Source: Mesorhizobium sp. J428
GTDB lineage: Bacteria; Pseudomonadota; Alphaproteobacteria; Rhizobiales; Rhizobiaceae
Length of the DNA stretch: 64,000 nucleotides
Assembly (NCBI RefSeq): GCF_024699925.1
Contig: NZ_JAJOMX010000001.1
Span: forward strand, 3,386,001-3,450,000
Reading direction: 5' to 3'
Shown: positions 13,896-18,916 of the stretch, piece after piece
Numbering within the stretch: the first letter of the stretch is position 1
How the letters are laid out: each line of letters starts with the position of its first letter
Program-made: the position numbers and the translations under genes
The notes under the pieces: model-generated
Database searches by the model: none
The model's input: only the letters and a program-made list of their open reading frames with translations
What the model was told of the DNA's origin: nothing

Positions 13896-13992
13896 TCCGG
13901 CTGATCCGTAGAGATTCGCGGCGAGCCTGGGCGTGCGGTCCCGGCTGCCGTCGCAGATCCTGTGGGCGGAGAGAGTTCGAGAGAGTGAGTCC

Positions 13993-15078
13993 TTGCGTCA
14001 GACCGGCATCCTTCCCGACCGCGACATCGCCGCCCTGTTTTCCTCCGGCGCGCTGACGAGCGGCCGCCCGCTCGACGCCGACCAGATCCAGCCTGCCAGC
14101 CTCGATCTCAGGCTCGGAGAGACGGCCTGGCGCGTACGCGCGAGCTTCATGCCGGGGCGCCACGCGACGGTGGAGGACAAGCTGGCGCGGCTGAAGCTGC
14201 ACGAGATCGACCTGCGCGAGAGCGCGGTGCTGGAGACGGGATGCGTCTACATCGTGCCGCTGCTGGAGAAGCTCGCGCTCCCGACTGACGTCTCCGCCTC
14301 GGCCAATCCGAAGAGCTCCACCGGCCGCCTCGACATCTTCACGCGCGTCATGGCCGACCATGCGCAGGAGTTCGACAAGATCCCGGCTGGCTATACCGGT
14401 CAGCTCTATATGGAAGTGAGCCCGCGCACCTTTCCGATCGTCGCCCGCACCGGCTCGCGCCTGTCGCAGATCCGTTTCCGCAAGGGGCATTCCCTTCTGT
14501 CGGAGGCCGAACTCGCGGCCCTGCATATCGAGCAGACGCTCGTCGCTTCGGAGGAGCCAAACATATCCGGCGGGGGCATAGCGCTCTCGATCGATCTCGA
14601 AGGCGACGCGAACGGGCTGATCGGCTATCGCGGCAAGCGGCACTCCTCGCTTGTCGACGTCGACAAGCGTGCCGCCCACGACATCCTCGACTTCTGGGAG
14701 CCGCTCCACAACCGCGGCAGCCGCGACCTGATCCTCGATCCGGACGAGTTCTACATCCTCGTCAGCCGCGAGGCGGTCCACGTGCCGCCCGATGTCGCCG
14801 CCGAGATGACGCCCTTCGATCCGCTCGTGGGCGAATTCCGGGTCCATTATGCCGGCTTCTTCGACCCCGGCTTCGGCCATTCCGCGGCCGGCGGCGCCGG
14901 CAGCCGCGCGGTGCTGGAGGTGCGCAGCCACGAGGTGCCGTTCATCCTGGAACACGGCCAGGTGGTCGGCCGCCTCGTCTATGAGCACATGCTGTCACGC
15001 CCCAAGGCGCTCTACGGCACCGACCTGAAGTCGAACTACCAGGCGCAGGGCCTGAAGCTGTCGAAGCACTTCAGGTAG
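13993..15078 (+). CDS. dcd: 2'-deoxycytidine 5'-triphosphate deaminase (two-domain Dcd)
   Basis: About 361 aa, roughly twice the length of classical Dcd, as in the fused two-domain form common in alphaproteobacteria. The first half holds IQPASLDLRLG, the family motif ANPKSSTGRLDIFTRVM and the trimer-core text YTGQLYMEVSPRTFPI. The second half repeats the fold (SLVDVDKRAAHDILDFWEPL, VGEFRVHYAGFFDPGFG). It deaminates dCTP to dUTP for thymidylate supply. No ATG fits: the start is taken as TTG 13993, giving MRQTGILPDRDI behind GAGAGAGTGAG; GTG 13933 would add 20 residues. It is convergent with the channel gene, 8 bp overlap. Confidence 0.85.
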   Translation: MRQTGILPDRDIAALFSSGALTSGRPLDADQIQPASLDLRLGETAWRVRASFMPGRHATVEDKLARLKLHEIDLRESAVLETGCVYIVPLLEKLALPTDVSASANPKSSTGRLDIFTRVMADHAQEFDKIPAGYTGQLYMEVSPRTFPIVARTGSRLSQIRFRKGHSLLSEAELAALHIEQTLVASEEPNISGGGIALSIDLEGDANGLIGYRGKRHSSLVDVDKRAAHDILDFWEPLHNRGSRDLILDPDEFYILVSREAVHVPPDVAAEMTPFDPLVGEFRVHYAGFFDPGFGHSAAGGAGSRAVLEVRSHEVPFILEHGQVVGRLVYEHMLSRPKALYGTDLKSNYQAQGLKLSKHFR

Positions 15079-15862
15079 CGCTGCCCGTCTTCCTGAGCTC
15101 ACGCACCTCCTCGCGCAGCGCCCTGATCTCGCGCAGGATCTCGTCTTGATCCTCCTGTAGCGCCTCCCGCTCCGCGCTCGCCTCAGCCTCGTGCTCTTCC
15201 TCCATCGCGGAGACGATGACGCCGATGAACAGGTTGAGCACGGTGAAGGAGGTCGCGACGATGAACGGGATGAAGAACAGCCAGGCGGTCGGATAGACTT
15301 CCATCACCGGCCGCACCACGCCATCCGACCAACCCTCCAGCGTCATCACCTGGAACAGCGTGTAGAGCGAGGCGCCGATGTCGCCGAACCGGTCGGGGAA
15401 GGACTGGCCGTAGAGCTTCGTCGCCATCACCGCGAAGACATAGAAGACGAGCGCGAGCAGCAGGATGATCGATCCCATGCCGGGCAGCGCCGTGATGAAG
15501 CCGGTGACGACACGCCTGAGGGACGGGACGATCGAGATCAGCCTCAGCACGCGCAGGATGCGCAGCGCGCGCAGCACCGATAGCCCGCCGGTGGCCGGAA
15601 TAAGCGCCACGCCGACGACCAGAAGGTCGAAGATGCGCCACGGATCCTTGAAGAAGTCGAGCCGGTAGACCGCGAACCGCGCCAGCAGTTCGAGCACGAA
15701 GACGGCGAGGATCAGGCTGTCGGCGATGGCCAGCGCCCCGCCGAACGCTGCCACTGCCGAGGGCGAGGTCTCCAGGCCGAGCGTGATCGCGTTGATGAAG
15801 ATCAGGGCGGTGATGAGCGTTTCGAAGCGGCGCGATTCGATGAGCGTCTTGAGGGCGGTCAC
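15071..15862 (-). CDS. Single-domain voltage-gated cation channel (BacNav/BacCav type)
   Basis: 263-aa six-helix channel subunit that should assemble as a tetramer. S4 (residues 95-117) carries Arg every third position, RALRILRVLRLISIVPSLRR. The pore loop reads FQVMTLEGWSDGVV, with the filter TLEGWSD at 174-180. S6 follows (IPFIVATSFTVLNLFIGVIVSAM), then a Glu/Arg-rich coiled coil (residues 220-258) typical of the C-terminal bundle in bacterial sodium channels. The filter differs from NaChBac/NavAb (LESWS) by Gly at the fourth place and Asp at the seventh, features associated with calcium selectivity. It is monocistronic. Confidence 0.88.
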   Translation of the reverse strand: MTALKTLIESRRFETLITALIFINAITLGLETSPSAVAAFGGALAIADSLILAVFVLELLARFAVYRLDFFKDPWRIFDLLVVGVALIPATGGLSVLRALRILRVLRLISIVPSLRRVVTGFITALPGMGSIILLLALVFYVFAVMATKLYGQSFPDRFGDIGASLYTLFQVMTLEGWSDGVVRPVMEVYPTAWLFFIPFIVATSFTVLNLFIGVIVSAMEEEHEAEASAEREALQEDQDEILREIRALREEVRELRKTGSAT

Positions 15863-15962: not shown

Positions 15963-17138
15963 TTACTGCGGCAGGGTCTCCAGCAGGAAACGGACCTGGC
16001 TGCCGCCCATCACCTCGCCGATGTCGGCGGGCGACATGCCGCCCTTCAGCAGCGCCTCGGTAATCTTCGCCATGCCCGTCGCGTCGAACGGCGTCGTCAC
16101 CGCGCCGTCGAAATCGGACCCGAGCCCGATATTCTCTGCGCCCACCAGATTGGCCGCATAAAGCTGCGCCCTGGCGATGTCGTCCGCGCTCGTGCCGCAG
16201 ACGGCGACGTCCCAGAAACCGATACCGATCAGGCCGCCCTTGTCGGCGATCGCCCGTACCTGGTCGTCGGTGAGGTTACGGCCGTTGTCGCAGGTGCCGC
16301 GCACGCCGGTGTGCGAGACCACGATCGGCTTGGTCGCCATGGCCAGAACGTCGTCGATCTGTGCCATCGAGCCATGCGCAACGTCGACGATCATGCCTCT
16401 CGCCTCCATGCGGCGGATCATCTCGCGCCCGGCCTCCGTCAGCCCCGTTCGCGCGACGCCGTGTGCCGATCCTGCCATCTCATTGTCGAAGAAATGCGTT
16501 GGCGCCATCATGCGGTAACCGGCGTCGAACAGCACGTCGACATTGGCCGGATCGCCTTCCAGCACCTGGGCTCCTTCCAGCGCGAGCACGCCGGCCACGA
16601 TGCCGGGCTCGACCTTGCGGCGCGCCAGAAACCGCTCCAGGTCACCGCGGCTGTAGATCATCGTCAGCTTCCCGTCCGATTTCGCCGCGAATTCCTTCAG
16701 CCGCTCCGCCTGGTAGAGCGCGCGTTCCTTCAGGCTGGTCCACGTCCTGATCGGCCAACGCTGCGCGACGGCGAGAAGCGTGATGTTGTCGCTGTCGGGC
16801 GCGTTGTGATCGATGTTCAGGCCGCGCGGTGTCTTCGATACCACCGAAAAGGCCTGCACCGCGACATTGCCTTCGATCAACCGCGGCACATCCACCTGCG
16901 CCCGAATGCCTCTTTCGAGCAGGTCGCGGCCCCACAGCAGCGAATCGGCATGGAGATCCGCGACCGTGAGCGTCTTGTGGAGTTCTGCCGCGCGCTCCGA
17001 GACGGAATAGGGTGGCGGTTCGATCACGCCATTCATGGCACGCTCCACCTCGGCGGGCGCGACGAAGAAGAAGATGCCGAGGCCGACGACGATCAGGACA
17101 ACCAGGACCCCAAGGGCCCATTTCAGGAATCGCGGCAT
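15963..17138 (-). CDS. Membrane-anchored dipeptidase, M19 (renal dipeptidase) family
   Basis: 391 aa. A single N-terminal helix (MPRFLKWALGVLVVLIVVGLGIFFF) anchors a periplasmic metallopeptidase. The zinc ligands are recognisable: the DLHAD motif near residue 60 (H and D), the bridging Glu in AGVLALEGAQ, and later His residues in IVDVAHGS and PIVVSHTGVRG. A family end text, GLGSDFDGAV, is present. M19 enzymes split dipeptides, including D-amino-acid forms. The start at 17138 was taken over a longer open frame because that extension is the antisense of the tRNA-Gly gene. Confidence 0.9.
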   Translation of the reverse strand: MPRFLKWALGVLVVLIVVGLGIFFFVAPAEVERAMNGVIEPPPYSVSERAAELHKTLTVADLHADSLLWGRDLLERGIRAQVDVPRLIEGNVAVQAFSVVSKTPRGLNIDHNAPDSDNITLLAVAQRWPIRTWTSLKERALYQAERLKEFAAKSDGKLTMIYSRGDLERFLARRKVEPGIVAGVLALEGAQVLEGDPANVDVLFDAGYRMMAPTHFFDNEMAGSAHGVARTGLTEAGREMIRRMEARGMIVDVAHGSMAQIDDVLAMATKPIVVSHTGVRGTCDNGRNLTDDQVRAIADKGGLIGIGFWDVAVCGTSADDIARAQLYAANLVGAENIGLGSDFDGAVTTPFDATGMAKITEALLKGGMSPADIGEVMGGSQVRFLLETLPQ

Positions 17139-17227
17139 TGTCTCCCCCTCATGCAGACCATCCGACAGGTGCGCGCAAGCATGAGATGCGTCAAGCACCG
17201 AGATCCGGCGCCAGCGGAACAAGCGCC

Positions 17228-17257
17228 TTGACAGCGCACCGTCGGATCGCGGATGAC
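17228..17257 (+). promoter_or_regulatory. Candidate promoter of tRNA-Gly
   Basis: TTGACA (17228-17233) is exact. A weak -10 (GATGAC, 17252-17257, 3/6) follows after 18 bp. Initiation would be a few bases before the tRNA at 17268. Confidence 0.45.
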
Positions 17258-17703: not shown

Positions 17704-18916
17704 ATGACGAGGTTGTCGCATGCGGCCAAAATCGCCTCGCTGGCGGTTGGAGCCACGCTGCTGCTGGCTGGGACGGGCAGCGCGCAGATCGGAAACGGAG
17801 CACAGACGGTTGAAGCCTTTCCGTCCGGCCAATCGTCCGCTTCGGGTCCCGTCGGTCCGGGACTGAGCCGCCTGCCTACCACGACGCCGCGAGTGATGCC
17901 TTACCAGGCTACAGGCGGATCACTTCCGGCTGCTCAGGCTGCCGGCGCGATTGGGGAAAGCGGCGTGGGAAATAACGCGTACGGGCTGAACAGCGGCTAC
18001 AAATGGCCCTATACCATTGCCCGAGTGGCGGTCATGGGCGCCCCGTTTAATACCGGGAACGGCGCGCTGGTTCCTGTTGCAAGCCGTCCGTATCGTTTTT
18101 CCGGCAAGCTTTGGATGCGCTTCGGCTCAAGCTGGTATGTCTGCACTGCTTCACTTGTGAAAAAGGGCGTTCTCATCACGGCGGCGCATTGCGTACATAA
18201 TTATGGCCAAGCTGCCGCTGGTAATGCAAGCGAGGTGCGTTGGTATCCGGCAAACTACTCGTCTACGGGTGGCCCATGGGGGGCACTACCCGGCTCAGTC
18301 TTGGCGTATCCCCTTACCGTATTTTTACGGCACCGATACTTGCCAATCTGGTGCTATCGGTGTGGTCTGCAACAACGATATCGCCACAGTTCGGTTGGCA
18401 CCACGCAACGGCGCCTATGCTGGAACTACTCTTGGCGGCTGGTATGGGTATGGTTGGAACGGCTACAGCTTCCTGGCGACACCCATCTTCGGCAACGCGA
18501 CGGTCGCGGCGATCACTCAGATTGGCTATCCCTCGGCGATCGACAACGGCTATCTAATGCTGCGCGGCGATACGTTTGGTAAATACATTGCGACCACTGG
18601 TGCGAACGGTAAGCAATTGATGAACATTCAGATTGGCTCCGCCATGACCGGCGGTTCCTCTGGCGGTCCTTGGCTCGTCAATTTCGGCACATCTCCGGTT
18701 GTTACTGGCAGCGCCTCGCTTGGGAACTCAGCCGTCCGCAACACCGTCGTTGGTGTGACGAGCTGGGGCTATACCGAAGTGGGCGTCAACGTCCAGGGGG
18801 CATCTTGGTTCGGCCAGAATGCTGAGTTTCCCCTCGCCGCTTATGGCAGCTACGGCGCGGGCAATATCGGCAAGATCATGTACGATACTTGCACCCAGTC
18901 GCCCGCCAATTGCTAA
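17704..18916 (+). CDS. Secreted trypsin-like serine protease (frameshifted at a G6 tract)
   Basis: About 403 aa when one base is removed from the six-G run at 18278-18283. A signal peptide (residues 1-28, ends GTGSAQ) is followed by a Pro/Ala/Gly-rich segment and a chymotrypsin-fold domain. The catalytic triad is His in LITAAHCVH (H about 162), Asp in CNNDIATVRLAP and Ser in MTGGSSGGPW. Cys pairs near TAAHC and the C-terminal DTCTQSPANC may form disulfides. RBS GGAGGA lies 5 nt before ATG 17704. As read, the frame ends early after LRHRYL; the +1 frame restores HYPAQSWRIPLPYFYGTDTC. Lower GC and an AT-rich promoter suggest transfer. Substrate unknown. Confidence 0.8.

Follow-up and report, generated by a model that had tools for sequence, protein, structure and literature searches.

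Does the one-domain voltage-gated channel encoded at this locus, whose pore filter reads TLEGWSD where the sodium channel NavMs reads TLESWSM, conduct Ca2+ in preference to Na+, and how did the gene come by such a filter? The window, that is, the whole stretch of 64,000 nucleotides that was analysed, carries the channel gene on its reverse strand, and the gene sits on a large chromosomal contig.

Architecture of the channel

The following features of the channel gene were located by translation of the open reading frame and by alignment.

15071..15862, reverse strand: channel gene; ORF of 263 aa with a GTG start, stop included, no internal stop
15539..15583, reverse strand: S4 voltage-sensor stretch, residues 94-108, aligned to the S4 of NavMs; R98, R101, R104 and R107 at a spacing of three
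15389..15391, reverse strand: Arg158; Trp stands at the same place in 84/84 TLESWSM relatives compared
15350..15352, reverse strand: Gln171 (Gln172 of NavAb), kept by alignment; member of the Gln172-Glu177-Arg185 network that backs the filter
15323..15343, reverse strand: selectivity filter TLEGWSD, residues 174-180, with Gly4 at 177 and Asp7 at 180 (translation)
15311..15313, reverse strand: Arg184 (Arg185 of NavAb), kept in the same network and invariant in the alignments
15197..15283, reverse strand: S6 and gate region, residues 194-222, aligned throughout with the S6 of NavMs
15089..15151, reverse strand: C-terminal helix, about residues 238-258, with heptad spacing

The 263-aa product matches the Pfam Ion_trans profile (2e-45) and is 53% identical to NavMs in the alignment; read from its sequence, it is a one-domain, six-helix voltage-gated cation channel with S4 arginines, a pore loop and a C-terminal helix. 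The filter aligned with that of NavMs without a gap, with Gly at the place of Ser4 and Asp at that of Met7, as the first-pass annotation had placed them in the fourth and seventh positions. The S4 arginine ladder and the S6 listed there were likewise recovered by alignment with NavMs, and R98, R101, R104 and R107 were invariant across 18 aligned sequences. Residues 194-262 were predicted to be helical, and I242, I246, L249, V253 and L256 follow an a/d heptad spacing by eye, so that the coiled coil claimed for the C-terminus is probable.

The S4 arginines, the Gln172-Glu177-Arg185 network, S6 and the C-terminal helix are common to the window channel and to NavAb and NavMs, from which it differs by Ser4 to Gly, Met7 to Asp, and Trp to Arg in front of the P1 helix. 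By residue count, the place of Arg158 is presumably that of NavAb Trp159. The predicted fold matches NavMs and NavAb; the structure model is a monomer with a pTM of 0.54, such fold matches are silent on selectivity, and no filter geometry was taken from it. By sequence, predicted fold and a tree built without CavMr and NavPp, the channel groups with the canonical sodium channels NavAb and NavMs. It lacks the Ser4 of the canonical TLESW filter, and would thus be a member of the canonical group by descent and, by its filter, not a TLESW sodium channel. The role of the Gln172-Glu177-Arg185 network in NavAb is described in PMC12919392.

Distribution of the filter

Among the 120 nearest proteins, chosen by whole-protein similarity, 107 read TLEGWSD, seven TLESWSM and three TLEGWAD, with one each of TLESWSE, TLERWAD and TLDGWSS; TLEGW[SA]D was accordingly found in 110/120, and Asp7 in 111/120. 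A one-off or a sequencing error was rejected, given the same filter in 107 of these proteins. A paralogue accompanying an ordinary sodium channel in the same genome was also rejected, as a profile search of the window genome returned one Ion_trans match only. Mesorhizobium is among the nearest named kin of the window channel, which agrees with the earlier description of a chromosomal gene in a rhizobial relative. Beyond that description, the filter was found to be the rule across a whole clade, and filters of a similar kind turn up again in other parts of the group.

All seven genomes of the genus sample gave a match, six with TLEGWSD and one with TLESWSM (G006, a partial hit). Channel matches, some of them to distant channels, were obtained in 117/297 genomes of the family sample and 164/297 of the order sample. 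At least 80 loci of named genomes were found among the matches listed, comprising 5 with TLEGWSD (labelled Mesorhizobium), 72 with TLESWSM and 3 with other filters, while 193 of 224 loci, in which some places are repeated, read TLESWSM and 17 TLEGWSD. Small-genome members of the order (family f4, 0.9-1.6 Mb, including G387) carry short, divergent channels of ~230 aa, and the filter of the G387 channel (L223) reads TLSSW-E. Channel matches with one in-frame stop were seen in four related genomes (G071, G184, G166 and G120), which possibly reflect loss of the channel or just a shorter C-terminus.

Origin of the filter

For the trees, 248 loci were reduced to 222 distinct sequences of at least 200 aa and then to 120 representatives, to which 16 of the 120 P-numbered proteins and NavMs were added to give 137 rows; a FastTree tree and a quick tree were built from these, and a chosen subset of 60 rows was analysed more carefully. 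When the filter columns were left out, the 60-row tree recovered a clade of 22 rows (support 99/97) set within channels that mostly read TLESWSM; in this clade 20/22 rows read TLEGW[SA]D and the other two TLESWSE (P0096) and TLERWAD (P0108). One neighbouring group of eight rows holds TLESWSM channels together with one TLDGWSS and two TMDSWST. One TLEGWSD protein (P0072) fell outside the clade in the faster 137-row tree, but not in the careful 60-row tree, and NavMs lay within the same large, weakly resolved group of the 137-row tree.

CavMr and NavPp belong to the AnclNav group, a branch separate from the NavAb-like channels (PMC7041947). Their sequences were absent from the trees, in which the presumed stand-in for that group was L222 (filter TFEDWTD). 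Membership of the AnclNav group, as the simplest reading of Gly4, is disfavoured by the position of the channel in the 60-row tree, which lacks CavMr itself. By the tree, the CavMr-like filter would be a resemblance reached separately from CavMr, and the window channel appears to be a member of the canonical sodium-channel family with a calcium-like filter.

At the codon level, 77/77 of the TLESWSM loci compared encode Ser4 by AGC, which differs from GGC in a single base; the passage from the ATG of Met7 to GAC or GAT takes three base changes. Among 13 TLEGWSD loci the codons vary at six of the seven filter positions, all but Trp. NG86 dN/dS values ranged from 0.03 to 0.36 over 45 pairs among 10 clade genes, and the channel genes of the clade are under purifying selection; the window gene itself is intact, in line with the earlier view of a probably working channel. 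When 123 TLEGW[SA]D sequences were compared with 84 TLESWSM sequences (repeats included, groups chosen by filter, so that columns 177 and 180 were fixed by construction and 158 and 221 were free), no residue was common to both groups at columns 158 and 221. Trp158 was present in 84/84 of the TLESWSM sequences and never in TLEGW[SA]D; residue 221 is Glu in 123/123 TLEGW[SA]D sequences, the window channel included, versus Gln in 84/84 TLESWSM relatives.

The genomic setting bears on the same question, since the gene that overlaps the end of the channel gene is found near channels of both kinds.

13933..15078, forward strand: dCTP deaminase gene dcd (NCBIfam equivalog), convergent with the channel gene and overlapping its end

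The dcd gene was found nearby in 13/17 TLEGWSD versus 54/117 TLESWSM locus rows, counted on rows of at least 3 kb with a fetched flank of 1.5 or 5 kb; the counts include some genomic places twice (for example L001/L002, L004/L009 and L005/L010), and short flanks hide some neighbours. In several TLESWSM loci, among them those of Nitratireductor (L068, L072), Hoeflea (L075) and Chelativorans (L079), dcd directly adjoins the channel gene and is again convergent with it, and metC lies on its far side; in others it lies some kilobases away, and it is absent from four Mesorhizobium loci (L066, L067, L069 and L071). Because dcd lies near loci of both filters, the filter was probably changed from TLESWSM to TLEGWSD in place, within an orthologous gene.

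Recurrent association of Gly4, loss of Met7 and an acid

In the 137-row set, Gly4 occurred without Met7 in 48/48 rows, and Ser4 occurred with Met7 in 80/87. An acidic residue at position 7 or 8 was present in 47/48 Gly4 rows versus 0/80 Ser4/Met7 rows, and the Trp before the P1 helix was kept in 79/80 Ser4/Met7 rows versus 5/48 Gly4 rows. Eight of the Gly4 rows lack one residue after the filter, which puts the alignment out of step at positions 7 and 8, and these positions were taken from the ungapped sequence. Outside the clade of the window channel, the columns tied most closely to Gly4 were position 8, position 7 and the Trp in front of P1.

Pagel tests on the FastTree tree (134 rows, leaving out L222, L223 and L228) gave a likelihood ratio of 62.3 (p 9e-13) for Gly4 with loss of Met7, the values for the three pairs being 62.3, 44.1 and 56.3. 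Sign tests on independent pairs over supported branches gave a median p of 0.5 for the 60 rows and 0.25 and 0.125 for the 137 rows, without significance because too few informative pairs fall on well-supported branches. The minimum numbers of changes on the 137-row tree were 14 for Gly4 and 10 for Met7, partly on unsupported branches; since the deep branches are unsure, Gly4 may in some deep lineages be old rather than gained.

Two wider searches were made. A DNA pattern that fixes Gly4 and leaves position 7 free, from which L225-L248 were obtained, gave Gly4 in 13/385 genomes of the class sample, 3/398 of the phylum sample and 10/297 of the order sample, with the window genome counted each time; Met7 was present in none of the 23 other loci. 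Two Gly4 queries brought in 236 more proteins (the queries' own sequences included). Of these, 73 have Gly4: 69 carry an acid at position 7 or 8, three lack both the acid and Met7, and one has Met7. The last, P0183, reads TLEGWSM, the filter of the Li+-selective laboratory mutant LivAb, keeps the Trp and lacks the acid; it was the sole case of Gly4 with Met7 seen, and because of it the pairing is not absolute. The CavMr filter, TLEGWVD, occurs unchanged in two proteins returned by a query of the NavAb type (P0208 and P0239).

Tentatively, one recurrent code, here meaning Gly4, loss of Met7, an acid at position 7 or 8 and, usually, loss of the P1 Trp, may have converted sodium channels of the NavAb type in place into native calcium channels on several occasions, with the Mesorhizobium clade as the clearest case. 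If this is true, bacteria would have many native calcium channels besides those of the CavMr group, and nature would supply pairs of orthologues from before and after the change.

Comparison with measured filters

The first-pass annotation had tied Gly4 and Asp7 to Ca2+ selectivity by way of CavMr. In CavMr, Gly4 is needed, the PCa/PNa of 218 falling to 11.9 in G4S, whereas Asp7 is dispensable (D7M, 144), so that this part of the argument fails; full selectivity also needs Val6, as V6T, which reads TLEGWTD, reaches 40.1 (PMC7041947). Compared by filter, the CavMr and window channels (TLEGWVD and TLEGWSD) share Gly4 and Asp7 and are one residue apart, CavMr having Val6 where the window channel has Ser6 and an AnclNav frame where the latter has a canonical one. 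Placed in NavAb, the CavMr filter gave no detectable current (PMC7041947). The NavPp filter contains three acids, and the channel favours Na+ (PCa/PNa 0.308); its D4G mutant, again TLEGWTD, gains Ca2+ selectivity (41.4); the TLEGWTD frames exclude K+ and Cs+ weakly, with PK/PNa of 0.69 and 0.81 (PMC7041947). CavMr-V6T and NavPp-D4G carry the nearest measured filter found, with Thr6 in place of Ser6, but they are laboratory mutants in an AnclNav frame.

The earlier argument for Gly4 from CavAb does not hold, because CavAb reads TLDDWSD, with Asp at positions 3, 4 and 7 and no Gly4. The engineered CavAb and CaChBac (TLDDW(S/A)D) resemble the window channel in having Asp7 in a canonical frame, and differ from it by Asp at 3 and 4 and by the lack of Gly4. 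Nor is Gly4 sufficient for Ca2+: NavAb S178G (LivAb, TLEGWSM), which has Gly4 in the same frame but keeps Met7 where the window channel has Asp, prefers Li+ (PLi/PNa 2.18) and excludes Ca2+ (PCa/PNa <0.05) (PMC12919392). By the rule of PMC10120453, Gly in this position would mark a one-domain channel as calcium-selective, a rule that this result shows to fail in NavAb. PCa/PNa is 0.36 in NavAb M181A and 0.47 in S178G+M181A, both having a PLi/PNa near 1, and the same authors proposed Met181 as the residue that separates monovalent from divalent cations (PMC12919392). NsvBa of Bacillus alkalophilus (TLDSWGS) is likewise a natural filter change inside a sodium-channel lineage, one reported to have given a non-selective channel (PMC7041947); it differs in its Bacillus group and in lacking both Gly4 and an acid at position 7.

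In the NavAb frame, the window filter corresponds to S178G + M181D, for which no published measurement was found in the literature searched, largely outside subscription journals. The same search returned neither the string TLEGWSD nor a recording of the window channel, and, judged by titles and abstract beginnings, none of the papers dealt with Gly4 in channels of the NavAb kind. The shorter string TLEGW also occurs in a paper on EukCat (PMC8002053) and in one on a T-type channel model (PMC7916697).

Ion selectivity

As a voltage-gated cation channel of the canonical group, the window channel would be a homotetramer, and its filter would have gone from TLESWSM to TLEGWSD. S4 would move on depolarisation and the gate at S6 would open, in the manner of NavAb; Gly4 would open the mouth of the filter, loss of Met7 would take away the side chain that bars divalent ions from NavAb, and a ring of Asp7 would set four extra negative charges above the Glu3 ring. 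Such a pore would conduct Ca2+, probably in preference to Na+, and its likely role would be Ca2+ entry upon depolarisation, perhaps in low-sodium settings. A link of the clade to low-sodium habitats is weak: ectoine synthase, a marker of salt habitats, was found in 0/9 clade genomes versus 19/71 others, and because the nine are close kin, kinship confounds the comparison.

By analogy with the measured filters, calcium selectivity of a TLEGWSD channel is plausible, and the joint change (Gly4, loss of Met7 and an acid at position 7) would be a better argument for it than Gly4 or Asp7 singly, because S178G+M181A reaches a PCa/PNa of 0.47. That the pore prefers Ca2+ is, in our judgement, the probable outcome, by a modest degree, and the earlier calcium-channel reading makes a good prediction. 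Several results weigh against it. The NavAb mutant S178G stays below 0.05 and S178G+M181A still below 1; the values near 40 were obtained in AnclNav frames, where K+ and Cs+ are only weakly excluded; the full CavMr filter is silent in NavAb, and its Val6 is replaced by Ser in the window channel. In addition, NavPp prefers Na+ with three filter acids, the clade holds one TLESWSE and one TLERWAD, and P0183 keeps Met7 with Gly4.

These results leave room for other outcomes. Loss of Met7 might just lift the barrier to divalent ions, so that Na+, Ca2+ and perhaps K+ pass alike, as in NsvBa. Such a poorly selective pore is unlikely. In its favour, M181A and S178G+M181A give values of 0.36 and 0.47 and a PLi/PNa near 1, the TLEGWTD frames hardly exclude K+ and Cs+ (PK/PNa 0.69 and 0.81), and NsvBa is a precedent for a natural filter change of this outcome. 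Alanine is uncharged, whereas Asp7 is present in 111/120 nearest proteins, and poor selectivity would not demand the acid at 7 or 8 that accompanies Gly4 in 47/48 tree rows and 69/73 further proteins. We regard it as rather improbable that the channel is still selective for Na+ (or Li+) and that the altered filter serves to adjust conductance, block or gating instead of ion choice. Exclusion of Ca2+ by S178G, which prefers Li+, is in line with that idea, as are the ratio of 0.308 in NavPp despite three acids and the canonical sodium-channel type of the remainder of the protein, 53% identical to NavMs; removal of Met181 alone, in contrast, makes NavAb permeable to Ca2+, the window channel has no Met7, and D4G brings NavPp to 41.4.

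Drift of the filter residues during decay of the gene was rejected as very improbable. The in-frame stops in G071, G184, G166 and G120 could be cited for it, some of them being perhaps ordinary C-terminal ends, whereas the window ORF is intact, dN/dS is 0.03-0.36 over 45 pairs, and the filter is the same in 107/120 nearest proteins while six of its seven codons vary among 13 TLEGWSD loci.

Related channels at what is apparently one locus, with few pore differences, make up a natural experiment on the interconversion of Na+ and Ca2+ selectivity, and the experiment falls in a frame with existing crystal structures. The natural pairing of Gly4 with loss of Met7 also fits the recent proposal that Met181 of NavAb sorts monovalent from divalent ions.

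Neighbouring genes

Upstream of the channel gene, the nearest neighbour lies on the same strand.

15963..17231, reverse strand: membrane dipeptidase (M19) gene (Pfam PF01244), directly upstream of the channel gene across a gap of 100 bp; start uncertain

Co-transcription of this gene with the channel gene is possible, and neither it nor dcd suggests a calcium function. No Kv-type gene lies directly upstream of the window channel, and an Ion_trans_2 search of the window genome gave no match. Directly upstream of the TLEGWSD channel in G003, G005 and L065, on the same strand, a Kv-type K+ channel gene was seen, with the filter TVGYGD and an arginine-rich S4 (in L009 at 1471-2151, L010 and L065, the last possibly from the same genome as G005).

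Farther along the window, at 17704-18916 on the forward strand, two overlapping ORFs in different frames encode trypsin-like pieces (TAAHC and GGSSGGPW), the second without a Pfam match; they are possibly a frameshifted or split serine protease gene.
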